24,071 nt of DNA, taken from positions 1-24,071 of IMG/VR virus record IMGVR_UViG_3300040751_001802; one strand, 5' to 3'. A model generated the notes under the pieces. That model ran no database searches. It was not told the DNA's origin and saw nothing but the letters and a program-made list of their open reading frames with translations. The stretch comes from a virus. Positions 3,869 to 23,152 of the stretch are shown piece after piece (position 1 is the stretch's first letter; each line of letters begins with the position of its first letter). The position numbers and the translations under genes were made by a program.

Positions 3869-4138
3869 TTATATGATTTCTTCGCTAATTTTAGTTGCAG
3901 TCCAAGTCTTTGCAGAATCGGAGTTACTAATCATTGGAAAATAAGCATCATAACGAGCCTGGTCTGCGAAAATTACTGTTCTTCTAAATCCATTTTTAGC
4001 AGGTAATAATTCAAAATCGACCGAAACTGTGTTTGGTCCTCCTGATCCTACTAGTCCATGTTCTAAAATAAACTCTTCTAGATTTTCGTATGTATTTCCG
4101 TTTTTTGTAACAATGTCTGCAACGTGTCTAATAGCCAT
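3869..4138 (-). CDS. small protein, copy A of a tandem paralogous pair
   Basis: 89 aa, starting MAIRHVADI, with no signal peptide or membrane segment. It is a clear paralogue of the next gene upstream (4153-4413). Both share MAIRH at the N-terminus, a TY..(8)..EHG..GS block, FEL, the core G-RRT-IF-D and a YFP/FFP motif followed by T-TKI near the C-terminus. No catalytic motif stands out, and no known family was recognised. The two genes are 14 nt apart and probably cotranscribed from the late-type promoter at 4488-4497, suggesting a late, possibly virion-associated or assembly role (inference). Confidence 0.75.
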   Translation of the reverse strand: MAIRHVADIVTKNGNTYENLEEFILEHGLVGSGGPNTVSVDFELLPAKNGFRRTVIFADQARYDAYFPMISNSDSAKTWTATKISEEII

Positions 4139-4152
4139 TTAATCAAACCCTA

Positions 4153-4413
4153 TTATATAGTTACTTTTTCGATTTTAGTTACTGTAAAAGCCTTGTCCGT
4201 ACTATTTGGGAAGAAAGCCTGAAATTGGGTTTCATCTTCAAATATAATTGTTCTACGACAGCCTTTGCCATCTGCGTGTAATTCAAAGTTAATTGAAGTA
4301 CAACCAGTGTTGTTTGAACCACATGGGCCGTGCTCAGCGTACCAAGCCGCCATGTCTGCGTATGTTGATGTTGAATCGTTTGCATCTAAATCAGATATAT
4401 GTCTAATTGCCAT
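4153..4413 (-). CDS. small protein, copy B of a tandem paralogous pair
   Basis: 86 aa, ATG 4413 with AGGAG about 9 nt upstream. It is a paralogue of 3869-4138: same MAIRH start, same EHG..GS, FEL, RRTIIFED and FFP positions. It contains three cysteines (in PCGS, TGC and GCRR) that copy A lacks, so the copies have diverged and may not be interchangeable. Function unknown. The leader upstream carries an inverted repeat (4470-4486) next to a late-type promoter. Confidence 0.75.
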   Translation of the reverse strand: MAIRHISDLDANDSTSTYADMAAWYAEHGPCGSNNTGCTSINFELHADGKGCRRTIIFEDETQFQAFFPNSTDKAFTVTKIEKVTI

Positions 4414-4487: not shown

Positions 4488-4497
4488 ACTATTTATC
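4488..4497 (-). promoter_or_regulatory. putative late promoter for the paralogous pair
   Basis: GATAAATAGT on the minus strand matches the TATAAATA-like late box. It overlaps the last codons of the co-chaperonin gene. Confidence 0.5.
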
Positions 4498-4854
4498 GGA
4501 AAAGTCACTTTGATCCTCATCAGATACTAGTAATATGGAGTCTTTATCTACTTTACGAATTTTAAAGGTATTTCCTTCATTGTCTTCAATTTGTACACCA
4601 CGTGTCCATCTACCATGTTCAACATAAATCCATTGTCCTGGTTTTACGTCTGTTTGTTTTGAACCAACTGCATAAACTTCAGCCCATCGTGGTCGAACGC
4701 CGTCGCTTGTTCCATCATCACTTCGTAAGATAATTCCGCCGGCTGTTACTCTTTCTTCGAAGTTCATGTCTTTAACTAGAACGTTATCATGCAATGCTTT
4801 TACACTATTTGCTTTATAAGTTCCTTCGTATGAGGGTTTATGATTTACTTGCAT
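4489..4854 (-). CDS. GroES-type co-chaperonin (T4 gp31-like)
   Basis: 121 aa. The GroES fold layout is visible: LHDNVLVKDMNFEERVTAGGII (about residues 21-42; the loop RVTAGGII is the GroES/gp31-type GroEL-binding mobile loop with its hydrophobic tripeptide), then a WAEVYAVG strand, VKPGQWIYVEHGRW and a closing IRKVDKDSILL. GroES proteins cap GroEL and control the folding chamber; T4 gp31 replaces host GroES to fold the major capsid protein. No chaperonin gene is present, so it should work with host GroEL. The protein has an extra N-terminal tail of about 17 residues and an acidic C-terminus compared with bacterial GroES. It starts 1 nt inside the stop of the upstream 180-aa gene. Confidence 0.85.
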   Translation of the reverse strand: MQVNHKPSYEGTYKANSVKALHDNVLVKDMNFEERVTAGGIILRSDDGTSDGVRPRWAEVYAVGSKQTDVKPGQWIYVEHGRWTRGVQIEDNEGNTFKIRKVDKDSILLVSDEDQSDFSDK

Positions 4855-5420: not shown

Positions 5421-5432
5421 CTATTATTTATC
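5421..5432 (-). promoter_or_regulatory. putative late promoter upstream of the 180-aa/co-chaperonin unit
   Basis: GATAAATAATAG on the minus strand, about 25 nt upstream of the start at 5396. The identical 12-mer occurs at 15701-15712 before a structural gene. Confidence 0.6.
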
Positions 5433-5940
5433 TAAGGAATTCACCCACATCTAAATCATAGTACATACTATTAACTTTGTGTACCCCTAATTTGTATAAA
5501 ACAAAACTTGAAACACTAGAACCACGTCCTAGTCCCATTACAATATTGTTTTTCTTCATAGTTTCCACAAAATATTTTAAAAACTTTAATAGATTTAGTA
5601 AATTTCTTTCTTGATACAAAAGAAGTTCTGCACCGACTCTTTGTAACTCTGCGTCATTATCACATTGTTCTAATAGCCATTTACATATGTCTAATTCTTC
5701 ATATTCTTTTGGCATATTCCATTGACTTTGATTTTCTTTATCAAAATCTTCTACAGAAATGCTTGGCTTTTCTATCGAGTGTAATCTTGGCCCATCACTA
5801 TAAAGTCTATCTGCACTTTTATTATAAGTCTCTGGATCAGTTACATTAAATTTACTAATGTCTAATTTAGGATTCTTATAAAGTTCTTCAAATAACTCTA
5901 ATTCATTATGATATACGATGCCGTATTCGTCAGTGTGCAT
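5428..5940 (-). CDS. DnaE (DNA polymerase III alpha)-like fragment lacking the catalytic aspartates
   Basis: 170 aa from ATG 5940. An in-frame ATG at 5952 would leave only a few nucleotides behind the promoter at 5963-5992, while 5940 has GGAAAG 5 nt upstream. The last ~65 residues match the part of bacterial PolIII alpha that leads into the palm: YQERNLLNLLKFLKYFV, then NNIVMGLGRGSSVSSFVLY with GRGSS at 138-142, then YYDLDVGEFLR (E. coli: GPGRGS..SLVAY..LFERFLN). The protein stops exactly before the PDFDVDF motif that carries catalytic Asp residues, so it cannot be a polymerase by itself. There is no PHP domain. It may be a reused nucleotide-binding domain or a relic. The homology is by eye but the motif order is convincing. 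Confidence 0.65.
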   Translation of the reverse strand: MHTDEYGIVYHNELELFEELYKNPKLDISKFNVTDPETYNKSADRLYSDGPRLHSIEKPSISVEDFDKENQSQWNMPKEYEELDICKWLLEQCDNDAELQRVGAELLLYQERNLLNLLKFLKYFVETMKKNNIVMGLGRGSSVSSFVLYKLGVHKVNSMYYDLDVGEFLR

Positions 5941-5962
5941 ATTTCTTTCCATATTATTGTAT

Positions 5963-13507: not shown

Positions 13508-14959
13508 CTATAGTGCCGCTATTCTCGCCTGAAAATCAGCAAAGTCTGTACTTGCCGCGACAGTTGATTTTAACGTTGCTAAAGTAATTGTTTCGTTTGC
13601 CACCCAAGCATAATCACTTCCGTTCCAAGAAAGAACATAACCACTTGTTGGATTTGATTGATTTAGGTGTGCGTCTACATCCGAATTTGCGTATGCTGAT
13701 GGAATAGTTGGCGTTCCTGTCAACGATCCGTATGCACCATCAAATGCATCTGTAATTCCATAACCTGCTATTGTAGTTGGCTTGCCTGTTAAACTTGCAA
13801 AAGTTTGTGCCGGTACACTTGTCAAATAAGTACCTAAATCACTAATTTGACTTTCAGTTATACTCAATGCCGCTTGGTGTTGTGTTACTGCACTTGCTGG
13901 AACATTTGCATCTGGAATATTTGCCCATGTTACTGCCGCAGTTAAATCATTTATTTCTGAAGCACCACCAACTGTGCCTGGTTCCCATTCTAAATTACTA
14001 TTGTTCCAAACTAATGCTTGTCCATTAGTTGGAGGCGTTGTTGAAGTATCAACATCACTTAAATCGTTTATACCACTTGGAACATCAGTTAAAAATGCTA
14101 CTGTACCAGTTGCGTTTTTAAAAGTAATTGTGTTATCTTGTGTAGGTTCTGTAACTGTTAAAATTGTTTCGTGTGCATCAGCAGTTGTACCTTCAAATGT
14201 AATTTGATTATTAACTAAAACGTCGTTTGTTTCAAGAGTAGTAGTTGTACCCTGTACAACTAAATCACCCGTTACAGTTAAGTTTTGAACGTTACTAGGG
14301 CCTGTTACGTTTAAGTTAACACTTGTTACGTTAGTGTTATTAACATCACCTGTTAGTGTGCTTGTCATATTACCAGTAAATGTACCACTAATACTTCCAC
14401 TTACATCAAGGTTAGTTGAATAAACATTTCCCCAACGATTACTAGCACCACCTAAATTTTGTGTAGTACTAACTGGTAAGAAGTCTGAACTAGATTTTGC
14501 AACATAATTAACTGTATCTGTATTACTGTCACCTAGTGTTGTATTTCCAGTTACACTTAAAGTCGTTAATGTTGCAGTACCTGAAACTTTAGCATCACCT
14601 GTTACATCAAGTGGTACTGTTGGAGCATTATTCTTAATACCAACAAAACCCGAACTACCTTTAACATATAAAACGTCATTGGCTAAATCTGTATTAACAG
14701 TAAAGTTATAATTACCATTGTTTGGATTAATGATGGTATCACCGGCTACTTTAAAAGCACCTGAATCTGCAGGATCCACGATAACATCAGTTGTACCAGC
14801 AATGGTATCAGCAGTAATATTTAAATTACTATTAACTGCACCATATGTCCATACATCATCAAAGTTTTGATTTACTTTTTCAAACGCCGCACGAAGTAAG
14901 TCACCTGTACCGTCGTCTGCATTTGTTCCTATATTAATTACTCTTTTAGTTCCAGCCAT
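13508..14959 (-). CDS. tail-fibre-like structural protein
   Basis: 483 aa, dominated by Thr, Asn, Asp, Val and Gly. The N-terminal adaptor INIGTNADDGTGDLLRAAF plus EKVNQNF (about residues 9-36) is nearly the same as in the next protein (14975-15667). The middle consists of repetitive strands (LTVTGDLVVQGTTT, ATLTTLSVTGNTTLG) typical of fibre shafts. The C-terminal third has phage-fibre phrases: NDLSDVDTSTTPPTNGQALVW, SLTGKPTTIAGYGITDAF, SGYVLSWNGSDYAWV. It ends in a short helix (FADFQARIAAL). AGGAG lies before ATG 14959, and the 15-nt gap from the upstream gene indicates cotranscription. Likely a distal tail fibre or baseplate-attached adhesin. Confidence 0.8.
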   Translation of the reverse strand: MAGTKRVINIGTNADDGTGDLLRAAFEKVNQNFDDVWTYGAVNSNLNITADTIAGTTDVIVDPADSGAFKVAGDTIINPNNGNYNFTVNTDLANDVLYVKGSSGFVGIKNNAPTVPLDVTGDAKVSGTATLTTLSVTGNTTLGDSNTDTVNYVAKSSSDFLPVSTTQNLGGASNRWGNVYSTNLDVSGSISGTFTGNMTSTLTGDVNNTNVTSVNLNVTGPSNVQNLTVTGDLVVQGTTTTLETNDVLVNNQITFEGTTADAHETILTVTEPTQDNTITFKNATGTVAFLTDVPSGINDLSDVDTSTTPPTNGQALVWNNSNLEWEPGTVGGASEINDLTAAVTWANIPDANVPASAVTQHQAALSITESQISDLGTYLTSVPAQTFASLTGKPTTIAGYGITDAFDGAYGSLTGTPTIPSAYANSDVDAHLNQSNPTSGYVLSWNGSDYAWVANETITLATLKSTVAASTDFADFQARIAAL

Positions 14960-14974
14960 TGTGTTCTCCTATCC

Positions 14975-15667
14975 TTAGAATGCCGCTAGTGCGACTTTTT
15001 TCCAGATAGCAGTACTGCCATCATGTGCCGCAGTACAATAATAGATATAACTTGCGTCTATGGCTACATCACCTGCTAAATCACCTGCGGCTCCTTGAGC
15101 ACTTGCTGGTGTATGTGTTGTAGCAATATTAATTCTATCGCCTGTTGCGGTTAATTTTGTTCCAAAGATCCCGCGCCATACATTTGCCGCTGAACCTAAA
15201 TCTTTTGTGTTTGTTGTATCACTTAAAATGTGACCACTAACATTAACTTCGCCACCACCTGGTACTAGGTTAATATCATTTGTAGTAGTTGTTAGTGTAG
15301 ATGTTGTTCCATTTATTGCAATGTCACCCATTGTAACTGTTGTTCCATCATCAACTACTGAACTTATTACTACATTACCACTTGCATCAAATTTTAAGAC
15401 TGCATTATCAGTATGTGTAGTAAATTGTAAATTTTTAGAAGTATCTACAACAATAGCACCTGTACCATTCGGACTTAATGTAATATTTCCGTTGGTATCA
15501 TCTGTTCCAATAGTATTGCCTGTAATACTAATATTACTTAAACTTGATCCGCCTAATTCTGTATAGACTTCAGTAAAGTTTTCGTTAATTTTAGTAAAGG
15601 CGGTTCTTAAAGGATCACCTGCGCCATCATTTGCACTACTTCCAATGTTAATTGCTTGTTTTGCCAT
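14975..15667 (-). CDS. short fibre-like structural protein
   Basis: 230 aa. The N-terminal AINIGSSANDGAGDPLRTAF plus TKINENFTEVY mirrors the 483-aa protein; the C-terminal GDVAIDASYIYYC and DGSTAIWKKVAL mirror the 243-aa protein (10311-11042). It therefore combines the attachment module of one neighbour with the tip module of the other. The middle is a beta-repeat (NGNITLSPNGTGAIVVD). It is the first gene of the structural operon, behind GATAAATAATAG (15701-15712), with AGGAG about 9 nt before the start. Confidence 0.78.
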   Translation of the reverse strand: MAKQAINIGSSANDGAGDPLRTAFTKINENFTEVYTELGGSSLSNISITGNTIGTDDTNGNITLSPNGTGAIVVDTSKNLQFTTHTDNAVLKFDASGNVVISSVVDDGTTVTMGDIAINGTTSTLTTTTNDINLVPGGGEVNVSGHILSDTTNTKDLGSAANVWRGIFGTKLTATGDRINIATTHTPASAQGAAGDLAGDVAIDASYIYYCTAAHDGSTAIWKKVALAAF

Positions 15668-15755: not shown

Positions 15756-16034
15756 ATGTATTTAGGATATACATTTATTAAGCAATGGCATCGACGTAAG
15801 GGCTTTGCAACTAAAAGAAGTTTGCAAGTTTACGCATTATTGTGTAATAACTGTCAAAGTTTATTCCTCAGAAGTTCGAAGGATATCAGTACATCTCGAT
15901 TGAACAAGTGGGTTAATCACTACTGCGGTTGTTGTGGTGATGTTTATAAACTTGCACAAAAAGACAGTGCATTACGAAAAAGGACATTAAAATATGATGC
16001 GAGTTCAACAGTACCTATTAGTCGTTTGCGTTAG
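15756..16034 (+). CDS. small zinc-ribbon protein
   Basis: 92 aa from ATG 15756. A longer reading from TTG 15696 would cross the late-type promoter and is rejected. Two CxxC knuckles are visible: LLCNNCQSLF (residues 29-38) and HYCGCCGDVY (about 55-64), separated by a basic SSKDISTSRLNKW linker, so it should bind one zinc ion. The C-terminus is basic. This layout is common in phage HNH-like or nucleic-acid-binding small proteins, but no HNH histidines are evident. Its 3' end overlaps the HtrA-like gene by 41 nt in another frame. Confidence 0.65.
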   Translation: MYLGYTFIKQWHRRKGFATKRSLQVYALLCNNCQSLFLRSSKDISTSRLNKWVNHYCGCCGDVYKLAQKDSALRKRTLKYDASSTVPISRLR

Positions 16035-17082
16035 CATAATCACTTATTTCGGTTTAACCGAAACTGCTTTCAGTGGATTAAAAAATATTGACAATAATTT
16101 AAAGTCAACTGTTTTTGTTTCTATTAAAAACGTAAAACCAGAAATAGATGAAACATCAGGTAATATGATTCCAGTACCTCCACCGGATCAAGGATCTGGT
16201 ATTGGTTCAGGTATTATTATGTCAAAAGAGGGACATATTATTACCAACTATCACGTTATCGAAAAAGGTAATACAATTTCAGTATGGATGTATGAAGACG
16301 AATCCATGACTGAATATAATGCAACTGTTGTTGGATTTGATATACTTTCTGACATTGCAATAATAAAAATTGACCTACCGGAGAATTATAATTATATTCC
16401 TATTAAGTGGGGCAAAGATCCTGACTTTGGAGAAGACATTTATGTCATCGGTCATCCGCAAGGTATGATTTGGAGTGTTAGTAAAGGTGTTATTAGCAAT
16501 CCAAAACGATTTGTGTCTTCGCCTTGGCAAAGACTAATACAATCAGATGCACTTATTATGCCAGGTAATAGTGGCGGACCATTGTTCGATGAACATGGCG
16601 ATTTAATAGGCATCAATACACTTATGATTCTATCTCGTGACCCGACTGCAAAGACACAAGCCTGGGCAATGAGCATTCATTTAGATGATGTGAGATGGGT
16701 TTACGACAGAATACTTTCGTACGGCAGAGTACGAAGACCTGCTTTAAACATTGAAGTTGATTTCGATGTTGATATGAAGAGGGTAAAAATAAAGGCCTCG
16801 CCTGAGAGTAATCTCTATGTTGCTGGAATGACAAGCGAATCTTACATTCTAGAAATTGATGGGATCCAGGTGCAAGAGTATGGTGATATTTTCGAATACT
16901 TAAAAACAAAGTTAGACGGAGAAATAGCCATAGTTAAGGTTGAAAATGTAGAATCCGGAGAAGTGTCAACTCATACGTTTGAGTTAGGTGATTGGGAGTC
17001 TTTAAGTAAGAAGAAGGAAGAAAAACTAGAAGTGGAACCAGTAGAACCGATAGAGCCGAAAGGAAATCATCCACACGATTAA
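15994..17082 (+). CDS. secreted trypsin-like serine protease of the HtrA/Deg family
   Basis: 362 aa. Residues 1-27 form a signal peptide or membrane anchor (MMRVQQYLLVVCVSIITYFG, then a TAFS cleavage region). The S1C catalytic triad is complete: His87 in TNYHVIE, Asp120 in DILSDIAII, Ser193 in PGNSGGPL. Residues about 230-330 look like a degenerate PDZ domain (YILEIDGIQVQEYGDI, then IVKVENVESGE). The tail is Pro/Glu-rich and ends in a His-rich NHPHD. HtrA proteases degrade or refold misfolded envelope proteins in the periplasm; a phage copy might protect the envelope or process virion or surface proteins (inference). AAGGA lies about 10 nt before ATG 15994. It converges directly on the Fe-S gene at 17083. 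Confidence 0.9.
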   Translation: MMRVQQYLLVVCVSIITYFGLTETAFSGLKNIDNNLKSTVFVSIKNVKPEIDETSGNMIPVPPPDQGSGIGSGIIMSKEGHIITNYHVIEKGNTISVWMYEDESMTEYNATVVGFDILSDIAIIKIDLPENYNYIPIKWGKDPDFGEDIYVIGHPQGMIWSVSKGVISNPKRFVSSPWQRLIQSDALIMPGNSGGPLFDEHGDLIGINTLMILSRDPTAKTQAWAMSIHLDDVRWVYDRILSYGRVRRPALNIEVDFDVDMKRVKIKASPESNLYVAGMTSESYILEIDGIQVQEYGDIFEYLKTKLDGEIAIVKVENVESGEVSTHTFELGDWESLSKKKEEKLEVEPVEPIEPKGNHPHD

Positions 17083-17421
17083 TTAAAATGCTACTGATTC
17101 TCCGCAACCACAAGAACTAGTTGCTTGGGGGTTTTCAATTACAATTTGGGAACCTCCAAAACTTTCTTTATAATCTATAGTTGTTCCCATAATATAGAAT
17201 AAACTAAACTTATCAATAATTAGATTTTTTTCTTCATCTAATTTAATAACTTCATCTTCGGGATTAATTTTATCCGTTTCAATGGAATCCCATTTATATT
17301 TAAAACCTGCACAACCTCCACCTTGTACACCAAAGTATACATTAGTTGCATTTTGTTTGTCTGCCGTTTTAATTAAGTAATTTCTAGCGGAATCTGTGAT
17401 AGTTGGTAACATACTCGTCAT
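17083..17421 (-). CDS. A-type Fe-S cluster carrier (IscA/ErpA/HesB family)
   Basis: 112 aa from ATG 17421. The ATG at 17433 directly abuts AGGAG and is too close to it, and ATG 17412 is a further alternative. The HesB signature is complete: the first ligand Cys37 in GGGCAGFKY and the C-terminal pair Cys104/Cys106 in SSCGCGESVAF. ITDSARNYL at the N-terminus and IDYKESFGGSQIVIENPQA before the Cys pair match the family. These proteins receive [2Fe-2S]/[4Fe-4S] clusters and hand them to apo-enzymes. It overlaps the SufT-like gene and is the last gene of the Fe-S trio; its stop abuts that of the converging protease gene. Confidence 0.92.
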   Translation of the reverse strand: MTSMLPTITDSARNYLIKTADKQNATNVYFGVQGGGCAGFKYKWDSIETDKINPEDEVIKLDEEKNLIIDKFSLFYIMGTTIDYKESFGGSQIVIENPQATSSCGCGESVAF

Positions 17422-17806
17422 CGTGATTATCATCTCCTAAATTTAATGTGAACTGTGCAATCTCACTCATTTGTGATGGATTAAATGTAGGTTCAAATGT
17501 CATTTGTACTTCTACTTTATTAATACCAGGCACTTTTAATAATGCTTGTTCTGTCCATATTGGCATTTCGCCTGCTACTGGACAAAAAGGACTTGTAAGT
17601 GTCATAACTGTTGTACAATTACCTTCTACAACATCACAATGATAAATTAATCCTAGTTCAAATATATTTATACTGATTTCTGGATCATATACTTCGCGAA
17701 GTTCTTTTTTAATATCTTCTTGCTTAACATTTGGGTCAGTTATTTTTAAATCAAAACTGCCTTCAGCATCTGGACTTCGATTGAAGTCTTTTATTTCTAC
17801 TTTCAT
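17384..17806 (-). CDS. SufT/MIP18-type (DUF59) Fe-S assembly factor
   Basis: 140 aa. The DUF59 core is clear: LREVYDPEISINIFELGLIY (37-55) with the DPE(I/L) and N-x-x-ELGL-Y signature, then MTLTSPFCPVAGEMP (68-82) with the conserved Cys75, and VPGINKVEVQMTFEPTFNP. The family includes SufT, PaaD and eukaryotic CIA2/MIP18, which help to deliver Fe-S clusters. An N-terminal extension of about 20 residues and an acidic C-terminal tail (DDNHDDEY) are additional. It starts inside the ferredoxin stop (ATGA overlap), so translation is coupled. Confidence 0.9.
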   Translation of the reverse strand: MKVEIKDFNRSPDAEGSFDLKITDPNVKQEDIKKELREVYDPEISINIFELGLIYHCDVVEGNCTTVMTLTSPFCPVAGEMPIWTEQALLKVPGINKVEVQMTFEPTFNPSQMSEIAQFTLNLGDDNHDDEYVTNYHRFR

Positions 17807-18090
17807 ATTCTAATTTTTACTTTCCCATCGGGTGCGTTATCTAAATCTAGTTGACATCCTAAACGACTGTTAGGTCTTCCTTCTGCGTGAAGCATATCTA
17901 ATTCTTCTTCACTTGGGTCTTTAAAAAATTCTTCTCCTTCAAGTACTGTACATATACATGAACCACAGGCACAAGATCCTCCGCAAGTTCCCCAATCGAT
18001 ATCATCGTATAGGGCAATCATTACATTATCTGTGCCTGTGTATTCTACTTGAATTGACTTGCCTTTATGTAAGGCTGTAAGTTTGGGCAT
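17803..18090 (-). CDS. [2Fe-2S] ferredoxin, adrenodoxin/Isc type
   Basis: 95 aa. The ligand pattern is C36-x5-C42-x2-C45 ... C79 (TCGGSCACGSC and RLGCQL), as in E. coli Fdx of the isc operon rather than the plant/cyanobacterial photosynthetic type. The acidic partner-binding helix (DPSEEELDML) follows the cluster loop. It carries electrons, for example for Fe-S cluster assembly. AAGG lies 7 nt upstream of ATG 18090. It is the first of three coupled Fe-S genes and is itself 3 nt downstream of a small membrane protein gene. Confidence 0.93.
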   Translation of the reverse strand: MPKLTALHKGKSIQVEYTGTDNVMIALYDDIDWGTCGGSCACGSCICTVLEGEEFFKDPSEEELDMLHAEGRPNSRLGCQLDLDNAPDGKVKIRI

Positions 18091-18093
18091 TCA

Positions 18094-18255
18094 TTAACCT
18101 TTTTTATAGATTTGCCATGCTCCATAACCGATTGCGGCATATGCCGCCAATTTAGCAAAAGGTCCAGCAATTAGAACAATTACACCGATGGCAATTAAAG
18201 CCGCTCCTGAATGCGATGTTCTTTCTTTTACTCTACTTTTTATCCAATTTGTCAT
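18094..18255 (-). CDS. 53-aa single-span membrane protein
   Basis: Hand-translated gene: ATG 18255, stop TAA 18094-18096. The N-terminus is basic (TNWIKSRVKERTSHS), then a hydrophobic stretch about residues 17-47 (GAALIAIGVIVLIAGPFAK, then LAAYAAIGYGAW) forms one long or two short membrane segments. AGGAG lies about 8 nt upstream. Function unknown; the next upstream gene also encodes a small membrane protein, so they may act as a pair (holin-like roles are possible but unproven). Confidence 0.7.
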   Translation of the reverse strand: MTNWIKSRVKERTSHSGAALIAIGVIVLIAGPFAKLAAYAAIGYGAWQIYKKG

Positions 18256-18294: not shown

Positions 18295-18528
18295 TTATTT
18301 TCTTGTAAAAATGTGGTATAACACCCAAATCGCTACTAAACCTACAAGACCTTGTGCTGAAAATCCAGCAATAATGTTTTGTACATTTGCGATTACACTG
18401 ATGTTTGGCCAGAATGGAATATTCTGTCCATTAAATAGTACTTCAAGTACAACTGCTAAAGATATTAAACTAATACCTGCTTCTGTTAGAGCTGAACTCC
18501 AGCCTTTTATTTTATTAAGTATGTCCAT
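18295..18528 (-). CDS. 77-aa two-span membrane protein
   Basis: An N-terminal amphipathic helix (MDILNKIKGWSSALTEAG), then hydrophobic spans about residues 18-33 (ISLISLAVVLEVLF) and 58-74 (LVGLVAIWVLYHIF), with an N/P/W-rich loop (NGQNIPFWPN) between them and a basic C-terminus (TRK). AAGGAG lies 7 nt before ATG. The size, two spans and charged tail fit a class II holin, but holins cannot be identified by sequence alone. It lies downstream of the IF-1 gene. Confidence 0.7.
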   Translation of the reverse strand: MDILNKIKGWSSALTEAGISLISLAVVLEVLFNGQNIPFWPNISVIANVQNIIAGFSAQGLVGLVAIWVLYHIFTRK

Positions 18529-18556: not shown

Positions 18557-18575
18557 AGTGAAGATTATCTTCACT
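18557..18575. promoter_or_regulatory. perfect inverted repeat across the IF-1 stop codon
   Basis: AGTGAAGAT, one central T, ATCTTCACT. As RNA it folds into a 7-bp stem with a 5-nt loop that includes the IF-1 stop (18571-18573). No U-tract follows in either direction, so an RNA-processing or stability element is more likely than a terminator. Confidence 0.4.
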
Positions 18576-18795
18576 GTTTATGTCTATAAATTATACGTCC
18601 TTTATTCATATCGTAGACGCTAACTTCTAGATCCACTTTATCACCCAGCAAAACTTTAATGTTATTTTTTCTCATCTTGCCATTTAAGTGTGCTACTAAG
18701 GTTCTATCGTGTCCTGCGACTTTTACTTTGAATTGTGCATTTGGTAATAGTTGTTCTACTACGCCCTGTACTTCTATGGTGCCGTCTTTTGCCAT
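18571..18795 (-). CDS. infA: translation initiation factor IF-1
   Basis: 74 aa, close to the 71-72 residues of bacterial IF-1. The alignment is end to end: MAKDGTIEVQGVVEQLLPNA (MAK..IE-QG-V-E-LPN in E. coli), FKVKVAGHDRTLVAHLNGKM, RKNNIKVLLGDKVDLEVSVYD, then KGRIIYRHK. The OB-fold, GKMRKN and GD-V segments are all intact. IF-1 occupies the ribosomal A site during initiation and modulates IF-2 and IF-3. Phages normally rely on the host copy. The gene has a late-type box only 2-3 nt of expected leader away from ATG 18795 and AAGG at 13-nt spacing. Alternative: a cellular infA picked up recently; but its neighbours look phage-like. Confidence 0.93.
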   Translation of the reverse strand: MAKDGTIEVQGVVEQLLPNAQFKVKVAGHDRTLVAHLNGKMRKNNIKVLLGDKVDLEVSVYDMNKGRIIYRHKQ

Positions 18796-18797
18796 TG

Positions 18798-18810
18798 TGT
18801 ATTATTTACC
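18798..18810 (-). promoter_or_regulatory. late-promoter-like box next to the IF-1 start
   Basis: GGTAAATAATACA on the minus strand, 2 nt from ATG 18795. It would give a nearly leaderless transcript if used with T4 late spacing. Confidence 0.4.
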
Positions 18811-18813
18811 TTG

Positions 18814-19251
18814 TTAACGTCTCATTTTCGCCAGCTCTTTGGCGTCGTCATCGCTGAATACGGGCACTAGATTGCTCTTGTGCATTGTAGCAATACCTAA
18901 TAGTCGTCTTTCACCGGTATATTCCATCGGTTTTCGTTTTGTTGCCGTTGTAAAACTATCTTTAGAATTTAGGCTTGGAACGTGTTCTGTTTGTCTAACA
19001 CTTGGTCCTGAATAATGCCAAGGTTCTTTAATTGCAGTTGGCGGATTTTTAGGTTTGTATCTACCTTTAACATAATCAATATACTCGTCCCATGTCATTT
19101 GCATATTGTGAGCATGGCATTGACGCATCTTTTTATTGTAATCACGCAATTCTTTTTGCCAACGTTGAATATCTGCTTTAGTATCTTTCTTTTTAGTTTT
19201 ACGTTTTCGAGTATTAAGGGTTGTTAGTCCTCTTTCTAAATGCATTGTCAT
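18814..19251 (-). CDS. 145-aa basic phage protein with GIATMHKSN motif
   Basis: The N-terminal half is very basic (TRKRKTKKKDTKAD, then a WQKEL..YNKKMRQ helix and MTWDEYIDYVKGRYKP). The C-terminal half carries PSLNSKDS (about 93-100) and then a segment of the form GIATMHKSNLVPVFSDDDA followed by ELAKMRR at the very end. I recall this C-terminal signature from many uncharacterised small proteins of tailed phages, but no function is known to me. AGAGG precedes ATG 19251. Nucleic-acid binding is suggested only by charge. Confidence 0.72.
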   Translation of the reverse strand: MTMHLERGLTTLNTRKRKTKKKDTKADIQRWQKELRDYNKKMRQCHAHNMQMTWDEYIDYVKGRYKPKNPPTAIKEPWHYSGPSVRQTEHVPSLNSKDSFTTATKRKPMEYTGERRLLGIATMHKSNLVPVFSDDDAKELAKMRR

Positions 19252-20098: not shown

Positions 20099-20173
20099 TG
20101 GTAGTCCCTAGGAGAATTGAACTCCTGTTTACGGTATGAAAAACCGTTGTCCTAACCACTAGACGAAGGGACC
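20099..20173 (-). tRNA. tRNA-Glu (anticodon UUC)
   Basis: 75 nt including an encoded CCA (20099-20101). Acceptor GGTCCCT pairs with AGGGACT (first pair is G-U), discriminator A. D-arm region CGTCTAGTGGTTAGGA, anticodon stem ACGGT/ACCGT around loop TTTTCAT (136-142 of 20100s) with TTC, and T-arm AGGAG-TTCAATT-CTCCT. It closely follows the bacterial tRNA-Glu layout. Confidence 0.93.
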
Positions 20174-20189
20174 ATATTAAATTTCTGGG

Positions 20190-20276
20190 TGGTGCCTGCG
20201 GAGGGACTCGAACCCACACACCGTAATCGATAACGGATTTTAAGTCCGTTGCGTCTACCTATTCCGCCACGCAGGC
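20190..20276 (-). tRNA. tRNA-Leu (anticodon UAA)
   Basis: 87 nt with encoded CCA. Acceptor GCCTGCG pairs perfectly with CGCAGGC, discriminator A. Anticodon stem ACGGA/TCCGT around CTTAAAA gives TAA. A long class II variable arm and the T-loop GGTTCGAGTCC are present, all as expected for tRNA-Leu. It reads UUA, a frequent codon in AT-rich genomes. Confidence 0.95.
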
Positions 20277-20495: not shown

Positions 20496-20580
20496 TGGCA
20501 GAGGTGAAAGGATTCGAACCTATTTGACTTATGTCCTGGTTTTGGAGACCAGTGTGCCACTCCAACTGCACCGCACCCCC
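20496..20580 (-). tRNA. tRNA-Trp-like (anticodon CCA) with enlarged variable arm
   Basis: 85 nt with encoded CCA (20496-20498) and discriminator G. Acceptor GGGGGTG/CACCTCT has two G-U pairs; D-arm GTGC/GCAC; anticodon stem CTGGT/ACCAG around CTCCAAA; T-arm ATAGG-TTCGAAT-CCTTT with one T-T mismatch. The variable region is 12 nt (GACATAAGTCAA, with a possible 3-bp GAC/GTC stem) instead of the usual 4-5 nt. CCA and G73 are the main Trp identity elements in bacteria, so Trp is the best call. Confidence 0.78.
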
Positions 20581-21790: not shown

Positions 21791-22565
21791 TAGATAAAAA
21801 TTCTTTAGTTTTTTCTGTTACTACGCCAGTTATGTTTAACACGGGTCTTGGTTTATGCCCATAATTACAAGTTCCATGTGGAACATCTCTCCAGGGCCAT
21901 GTAATACAATCACCACGTTTCCATTTTATTAATAGATTGCCTAATTGAAATATTTGTCCTTGATGTTGGTCATCTAAAAATATCATTGTTCTCATTACTT
22001 TACGTTGATCCAAATCTCCTTTATCAGCATTATCATATTCTTGTCTAGATTTTTTAAGTACTCCACCAAAATTATCTAAATGCCAATAAAAACATTGCCC
22101 AGGTTTTTGTACATCAAATTTTACTACACCTGGTTTTTCAAACCCAAATGCATCAACAATATATTGTAAACTATCTTTTAGTTTAGGGTGCAAAGTTCTA
22201 TTCGCAATAGTGTATCCACCATCGATATCATATCCCCATTTTTTAAAGTCGTTTTCTTCCCAATCGTTTGTTGTGTCTTTTCTAGTTTCTTTACGAAACT
22301 TAAAATCTGCTGGTTTAGTTTCCTTACTTAATTCTGCTACTGCTTCGTCCCAGTCGCCGCCAAAGTTTCCAACAGGTATTACTGGTGGACAATCCCCATC
22401 TAGTTCTGCAATATCATCTCTTGATTCGTCGAAGTGATATCTACTTGTTGCTTTACAAAAATCATAAAGACTATTATAGCCTTCTTTATCAACAGGAGGT
22501 TTTGTTTTTAATTTTTCCCACATCAGCAATGGGTCTCTACTAAATTCTAAATTATAAAATTGCAT
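21777..22565 (-). CDS. Fe(II)/2-oxoglutarate-dependent oxygenase-like protein 2
   Basis: 262 aa from ATG 22565, with GGAG 8 nt upstream and a 1-nt TAATG overlap with the PP-loop gene; the longer reading to 22610 is rejected. Metal ligands: His162-x-Asp164 in CFYWHLDNFGG, His230 in WRDVPHGTCNYG, and Arg240 in HKPRPVLNITG, the aspartyl/asparaginyl-hydroxylase-like arrangement. The N-terminal 120 residues are a separate, tryptophan-rich region (FSRDPLLMWEKL, CPPVIPVGNFGGDWDEAV). It differs in sequence from oxygenase 1, so this is not a recent duplication. The substrate is unknown. Confidence 0.8.
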   Translation of the reverse strand: MQFYNLEFSRDPLLMWEKLKTKPPVDKEGYNSLYDFCKATSRYHFDESRDDIAELDGDCPPVIPVGNFGGDWDEAVAELSKETKPADFKFRKETRKDTTNDWEENDFKKWGYDIDGGYTIANRTLHPKLKDSLQYIVDAFGFEKPGVVKFDVQKPGQCFYWHLDNFGGVLKKSRQEYDNADKGDLDQRKVMRTMIFLDDQHQGQIFQLGNLLIKWKRGDCITWPWRDVPHGTCNYGHKPRPVLNITGVVTEKTKEFLSNATT

Positions 22566-23152
22566 TAATATTCTCCAAAGGCCCAGTGCCTTTCTTTGCA
22601 CCACCAACATTCTTTACAAGGTCTCGGTGGTTGTTTTGCTTCACAACTTATTGTTAATGGAAATAAAGAATCTAATATACCATATTCTTTATAAAGTTTA
22701 GCAACACCTTTTTTATCTAAATCTGCTAAAGGTCTATACATAGTTAACCCATTTGGTGTGGTAACTACTTTTTCCATTTGTTTGTTGCGTGATTGGTCTT
22801 CACCTTCTCCAATGTATTCGGAAGGGTTTCGAGTAAAGCCATTTATAAAGCAATCTAAATTGTGATAATCAAAAAATTGTTTTCTTAACTTGTCTCTATT
22901 TGCTTTGCCTTCTGCTCTATCTTTAAAAGTATATATTGCATATGCTTTAATATTATTTAGTTTTAATTCATTTAGTATATTATTACAATTATCTAAATGA
23001 TATTGACCGTCATCTAATCTAGATCCCACATACAAATAAAACTCACTGTCTGGGTGTGTTTTGGAAAGTTGATATAACATAAGTGTACTATCAGCACCTC
23101 CACTAAACAGAATACCTATACGTTTATGTTGTGGTATTACACTCGTTTCCAT
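22565..23152 (-). CDS. QueC-like PP-loop ATPase
   Basis: 195 aa. The N-terminal PP-loop ILFSGGADSTLML (SGGADS at 17-22) binds ATP for adenylation. The C-terminus has four cysteines spaced C170-x8-C179-x2-C182-x2-C185 (in SCEAKQPPRPCKECWWC), the same spacing as the zinc site of bacterial QueC, followed by R-x-WAFG. QueC makes preQ0 (7-cyano-7-deazaguanine) from CDG; phage relatives take part in 7-deazaguanine DNA modification. The middle (HNLDCFINGFTRNPSEYIGEG) lacks clear QueC identity, so a different amidating or thiolating PP-loop enzyme is possible. No queD, queE, folE or dpdA is visible in the window. Confidence 0.72.
   Translation of the reverse strand: METSVIPQHKRIGILFSGGADSTLMLYQLSKTHPDSEFYLYVGSRLDDGQYHLDNCNNILNELKLNNIKAYAIYTFKDRAEGKANRDKLRKQFFDYHNLDCFINGFTRNPSEYIGEGEDQSRNKQMEKVVTTPNGLTMYRPLADLDKKGVAKLYKEYGILDSLFPLTISCEAKQPPRPCKECWWCKERHWAFGEY

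Follow-up and report, generated by a model that had tools for sequence, protein, structure and literature searches.

The infA gene and its genomic context

The window, by which we mean the whole stretch of DNA analysed, is a linear virus record of 24,071 bases. At 18571..18795 on the minus strand it carries infA, the gene for translation initiation factor IF-1, with a product of 74 aa (MAKDGTIEVQGVVEQLLPNAQFKVKVAGHDRTLVAHLNGKMRKNNIKVLLGDKVDLEVSVYDMNKGRIIYRHKQ) that has N at position 44 (residues are numbered as in E. coli IF-1 with Met1). A sequence-only reading had placed a full-length IF-1 gene here without naming the strand; the plus strand of 18571-18795 contains several stops, and the open frame is that of the minus strand. 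The profile comparison that it had proposed bore this assignment out, with 83.5 bits to the TIGR00008 infA equivalog against a cut-off of 61.15 (E 7.7e-24, model positions 1-69 of 69) and 72.7 bits to Pfam eIF-1a (IF-1/eIF-1A) against a cut-off of 30.2. The top PDB sequence match was E. coli IF-1 (E 4e-19), while in PHROGs the family is present only as phrog_30201, ‘unknown function’.

An AlphaFold model built from the window IF-1 and 15 viral relatives (mean pLDDT 84.8) predicts strands at residues 6-17, 21-26, 32-37, 53-59 and 65-72 and a helix at 39-43, that is, a five-stranded OB barrel with a short helix between strands 3 and 4. The closest folds to this model were IF-1s, the first being E. 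coli 30S-bound IF1 (9fco_I, TM 0.90, 0.9 Å rmsd), and T. thermophilus IF-1 (1HR0 chain W) gave a TM of 0.88, so that the intact OB fold read from the letters alone is upheld by the model. Between close relatives, dN of infA was far below dS (0.018 vs 0.19 for the window and contig L002; 0.083 vs 0.66 for the window and contig L003), so that infA is a selected coding gene and not a chance frame, under purifying selection. A genuine phage-encoded IF-1 in the window is thereby confirmed.

The gene directly upstream of infA (18814..19251, minus strand) matches phrog_27048 (E 8e-15), a family with no function assigned that precedes infA in many other phages. Directly downstream, on the same strand, lies a gene for a small protein, hydrophobic by eye, at 18295..18528, with a good Shine-Dalgarno sequence (AAAGGAG) and in a region conserved in L002; an ORF at 18094..18255 (minus) encodes another small protein, again hydrophobic by eye. 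Three consecutive Fe-S genes then occupy 17083-18090 of the minus strand, encoding a 2Fe-2S ferredoxin-like protein (17803..18090; Pfam Fer2, E 3.7e-8; conserved in L002 and L003), a MIP18/DUF59-type FeS_assembly_P Fe-S assembly protein (17384..17806; PF01883, E 1e-13; conserved in L002, L003 and L005) and an IscA/ErpA-like A-type Fe-S carrier (17083..17433; PF01521, E 3e-14), the last from a family that recurs downstream of viral infA. The named phage records that matched FeS_assembly_P or the A-type carrier were mostly unannotated or bacterial-looking contigs, and the three-gene cassette therefore seems to be absent from cultured phages. Further along the minus strand are two tail-fibre connector-like genes, at 14975..15667 (phrog_677, E 5e-15; this family also recurs downstream of viral infA) and at 13508..14959 (phrog_677, E 7.5e-9). 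The three tRNAs reported near infA were found about 1.3 kb away on the same strand, namely tRNA-Glu (TTC) at 20099..20173, tRNA-Leu (TAA) at 20190..20276 and tRNA-Trp (CCA) at 20496..20580, all minus.

Several other genes of the window deserve mention in their own right. A trypsin-like protease with a signal-like N-terminus lies on the opposite strand (15994-17082, plus) within the late region and is conserved in L002, L003 and L005. On the minus strand, a GroES-like co-chaperonin (Cpn10) is encoded at 4489-4854, a QueC-like queuosine/7-deazaguanine gene lies near the tRNAs at 22565-23152, and a separate ORF at 5428-5952 encodes a 174-aa piece of polymerase III alpha (PF07733), possibly from a split or truncated polymerase gene. 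Two adjacent small proteins (3869-4138 and 4153-4413, minus) both start with MAIRH and look like a tandem duplication.

Phage origin of the window

Besides the tail-fibre connectors, co-chaperonin, protease and Fe-S genes, the window encodes a clamp-loader ATPase, RpiB and PRPP synthetase. Relatives with infA were found in four contigs of other records, L002 (80 kb, 96% identical), L003 (136 kb, 85%), L004 (307 kb, 85%; its infA is the same as that of L003) and L005 (83 kb, 78%). A gene-by-gene comparison with L002, L003 and L005 found nearly all window genes within reach present and in the same order.

An infA gene in a virus record could stem from a chimeric contig that includes host sequence, or the phage could have captured it recently from its host, and some public ‘phage’ records with infA do resemble bacterial contamination. 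CAKLQH020000005.1 (annotated with leuB, leuD and truA), OR844994.1, OR846589.1 and OR847832.1 are ‘phage’ records in which infA is probably of this kind, and records so judged were set aside. For the window, a chimera, which the sequence-only reading had named as the finding that would undo it, is ruled out together with host contamination by the gene order shared with the four contigs of up to 307 kb (L002, L003/L004 and L005). Recent capture is ruled out by the dN/dS comparison, by the divergence of the window IF-1, at most about 58% identical to the cellular IF-1s retrieved, and by Asn44, for which a DNA pattern gave no match in one bacterial phylum (399 genomes). The chance that the gene is host DNA in either form is practically negligible, and a vertically kept viral gene is most likely.

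The window clamp loader shares 58.6% identity with its counterpart in the PA5oct group of ∼286-kb Pseudomonas phages, none of which was matched in the IF-1 search. The window most likely derives from a large marine phage of the T4 type, for which the clamp loader gives this group as the nearest named kin. Among 20 contigs picked solely by a similar clamp loader, infA scored above the cut-off in 13, and the gene is thus common in this phage group.

Ribosome contacts and residue 44

IF-1 is essential in E. coli, where it is located in the decoding centre. The published contacts of IF1 on the 30S subunit comprise K39 and M42 with the 530 loop, R41 and R46 with A1492/A1493, and H35, Y60, R64 and R66 at uS12 (PMC10913371), and the C-terminal Arg of E. 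coli IF-1 is needed for 30S binding (PMC4611024). In the alignment, the window IF-1 has K39, K42, R41, K46, H35, Y60, K64, R66 and R70 at these positions, with none lost; K46 in place of R46 is common among cellular IF-1s, as is K64, which is also the E. coli residue. A loss of residues required for 30S binding, the other finding that would have undone the sequence-only reading, was thus not seen at the published contacts, and we infer that the window IF-1 would bind the host 30S subunit and support initiation.

The one ribosome-facing position that sets the protein apart is residue 44. Among cellular IF-1s (65 distinct sequences spanning many phyla) this residue was Tyr in 43, Phe in 10, Arg in eight, His in three and Asn in one, whereas 78 distinct viral IF-1s had Asn in 50 and Lys in 14, with few others. 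As both sets had been picked by similarity to the window IF-1, three less biased checks were added. A DNA pattern requiring Asn44 and otherwise loose was found in at least 119 viral stretches, against 41 in all for its Tyr/Phe44 version. In the bacterial phylum mentioned above, where the Asn44 pattern gave no match in 399 genomes, a version left open at residue 44 matched in 158 of 200. The 13 infA genes found via the clamp loader had Asn (nine), Lys (two) or Thr (two) at this position, and never Tyr or Phe. In a 30S complex with tigecycline, residue 44 is listed as one of the IF1 residues close to the drug (PMC8273347), and it therefore faces the decoding centre.

The window IF-1, with Asn44, is non-aromatic here as in the main viral line. 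With column 44 left out, a tree test did not reject the grouping of every viral IF-1 other than the Tyr/Phe type in a single clade (p-AU 0.86; holding them together raised the log-likelihood by 32), and with column 44 included the viral clade had an SH-aLRT of 83, although with just 71 columns support in both is weak. By its residue 44, the window protein belongs to what appears to be a virus-only line with its own ribosome-facing residue. In metagenomes, Asn44 is also of practical use as a simple mark that helps to distinguish infA of viral origin from contaminating host genes.

A conserved gene block around viral infA

The company kept by infA in the window is also found elsewhere. Within 5 kb of the 78 distinct viral infA genes, the A-type Fe-S family occurred at 32 loci, the tail-fibre connector family at 34 and the phrog_27048-like family at 29. 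The family right after infA in 27 of these 78 loci is an Fe/Mn superoxide dismutase (SOD), mostly about 220 nt downstream (at least 27 loci, among them L118-L120, L122, L127-L129, L131, L132, L135 and L138). The block order is phrog_27048-like, infA, SOD, Fe-S and tail genes on one strand; the window block has the same order, but with the place of the SOD taken by the ferredoxin and FeS_assembly_P genes.

A second set, consisting of pattern-found loci with an IF-1 less than 85% identical to the first set, gave the same picture. At least one block family was present in 49 of 76 Asn44 loci vs none of 38 Tyr/Phe44 loci (Fisher p 1e-12, which is a guide only, the loci being related and some of the Tyr/Phe44 contigs probably cellular). 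The phrog_27048 family had 63 plus-strand matches and no minus-strand match in this set. The full block order was present in 33 loci, and a count over 105 Asn44 loci found the A-type Fe-S family in 54. Asn44-type viral infA thus appears, by gene order, to sit in a conserved block of its own. Neither the Asn44 signature nor the infA-SOD-Fe-S-tail block was described in any of the literature searched, outside of which lay subscription journals and supplements.

Such neighbours could be taken to mean that the protein has left initiation for another OB-fold job, for example as an RNA chaperone or in antitermination, perhaps tied to the redox and Fe-S genes. RNA chaperone activity of IF1 has been cited (reference 28 of PMC10913371), and SOD and A-type Fe-S genes often adjoin infA in other phages. 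However, this gene company may merely mean a shared late operon, and a function away from the ribosome would not require the ribosome-contact residues to be kept so strictly. We consider such a role improbable.

Timing of expression and start signals

At 8-13 nt upstream of its start codon, infA has the sequence TAAATA (18803..18808, minus strand), which is kept in L002, L003 and L005, with AAGG just 5′ of it (18809-18812, minus). The T4 late promoter is TATAAATA, which TAAATA resembles. In this phage, TAAATAC was seen before 14 genes vs 1.9 expected, and TAAATA was present before viral infA at 20 of 77 loci vs 5.5 expected. This short motif and the company of tail genes together suggest that infA is expressed late, with the tail genes. 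A motif like (G)ATAAATACTA, likely a late promoter, stands before many genes of the window and of L384-L386, in some of them between AAGG and the start codon, and in L006, L008, L009, L015 and L171 a short hairpin with TAAATA in its loop (e.g., CTCAGAGTAAATAGTCTGAG) stands right before infA. At the stop codon of infA, a 3′ hairpin (z −2.6) was considered as a signal and dropped, since L003 and L005 do not keep it.

Shine-Dalgarno starts were found in 55 of 115 genes of this phage vs 10.9 in shuffles, so ordinary initiation matters to it. A lack of Shine-Dalgarno sequences as the motive for a phage IF-1 was dropped on the same count.

These start signals also bear on selective takeover, the strong form of what the sequence-only reading proposed, in which the phage IF-1 would displace host IF-1 and make the 30S subunit prefer phage mRNAs. 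The virus-typical Asn44 at a position facing the decoding centre would fit such a function, as would the model published for huge phages in the main text of PMC7162821. The starts of this phage, however, resemble ordinary Shine-Dalgarno starts, which leaves little for IF-1 to discriminate. Moreover, IF-1 binds the A site and is not known to contact the ribosome-binding site of the mRNA. Selective takeover is therefore unlikely in our view, and the promoter motif and the place of infA among tail genes point to a putative late boosting of virion protein synthesis over an early takeover.

Proposed role in late translation

Our main reading, to which we give a probability of roughly 0.7, is that the window encodes a genuine viral IF-1 that is made late, occupies the host 30S A site and sustains initiation while virion proteins form. 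According to this proposal, infA would be transcribed late together with the tail genes, and its product would take the place of host IF-1 in the A site, between h44, the 530 loop and uS12. There it would aid IF2 (and IF3) in forming 30S initiation complexes, supplementing or replacing host IF-1 so that initiation capacity is raised or sustained during bulk virion protein synthesis. A weaker step is that Asn44 may alter the behaviour of the factor at the decoding-centre face, changing its leaving rate or its selection and thus giving the phage initiation kinetics of its own. The recurring neighbours, superoxide dismutase and Fe-S proteins, have no obvious role in translation, which counts against the main reading.

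It also counts against this reading that the phage does not seem to bring a full factor set, since a search of the four close relatives, the 307-kb contig included, gave no IF-3, and that bS21 is not tied to IF-1 among its clamp-loader kin. A parallel for viral action on these factors is the T7 kinase, which phosphorylates IF1, IF2 and IF3 (PMC6375957).

The same residue could also serve host shut-off, if an altered IF-1 bound the A site and left slowly, thereby blocking host initiation or 50S joining. Position 44 is indeed unlike that of host IF-1 and is close to the tetracycline site, at which drugs can retain IF1 on the 30S subunit (PMC8273347), and excess IF1 is thought to be able to inhibit protein synthesis (PMC10913371). 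On the other hand, the remaining contact residues are normal, the context is of the late type and the phage needs the same ribosomes itself, all of which makes shut-off very improbable.

Returning to a factor that sustains late initiation, a broader form of this proposal can be put forward, tentatively and at less than even odds. Most phage IF-1s, that of the window included, may represent a single old viral line that lacks the aromatic residue 44 at the decoding-centre face, is carried in a constant block of late genes that also contains superoxide dismutase and Fe-S genes, and behaves differently in the A site (in release, fidelity or start selection) in the service of late phage translation. 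Whatever its origin, a large family of viral IF-1s that keeps every known ribosome contact and swaps one residue facing the decoding centre means that phage control of initiation can be tested directly, in standard E. coli assays, on a protein of 74 residues.

Comparison with known systems

Viral IF-1 genes are already known; what is added here is the signature of the Asn44 line and the conserved gene block. The main text of Al-Shayeb et al. (2020, PMC7162821) reports that huge phages encode IF1 and IF3 and presents an ‘interception of host translation’ model. The expectation that phages would use host IF-1, and that a viral copy would hence be a surprise, did not hold in view of that report and of the 13 in 20 clamp-loader kin with infA. 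The huge-phage IF1 and the window IF-1 share their occurrence in large genomes and the same proposed redirecting of host translation, but that main text names IF1 without sequence analysis, and the virus-only signature and the gene block are described only here.

Sinorhizobium phage Phosso (PV764938.1) has an annotated IF-1 of the Asn44 type that is about 53% identical to that of the window, but it also has IF-3 and bS21 and other neighbours. The Lak phages and Bacteroides phage SJC03, both gut phages, have IF-1-like genes as well; unlike that of the window, these keep the cellular Tyr44 and do not group with the main cluster of viral sequences. The presence of Tyr44 in Lak and SJC03 and of Asn44 in Phosso suggests that phages may have acquired IF-1 more than once, with the window belonging to the Asn44 line. 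‘Factor 1A’, a core gene of Jug gut phages, can be likened to the window IF-1 by description. Cellular IF-1s (E. coli infA; T. thermophilus 1HR0) share full-length homology, fold and 30S-contact residues with the window protein, which differs in having Asn44 for Tyr, Asn37 for Ser, Val for Pro at 59 and one extra residue around 26-30.

Phage bS21 (Chen et al. 2022, PMC9723584) offers another likeness, being a phage copy of an initiation component encoded beside structural genes and expressed late in infection with them. It is, however, a ribosomal protein and not a factor, and the hosts in that study were Bacteroidetes, whereas the window phage uses Shine-Dalgarno starts. The 307-kb relative encodes bS21, as do 14 of 18 large IF-1-bearing contigs. 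A pairing of IF-1 with bS21 was considered and dropped, as bS21 was present in five of the 13 clamp-loader kin with IF-1 and in two of the seven without it.
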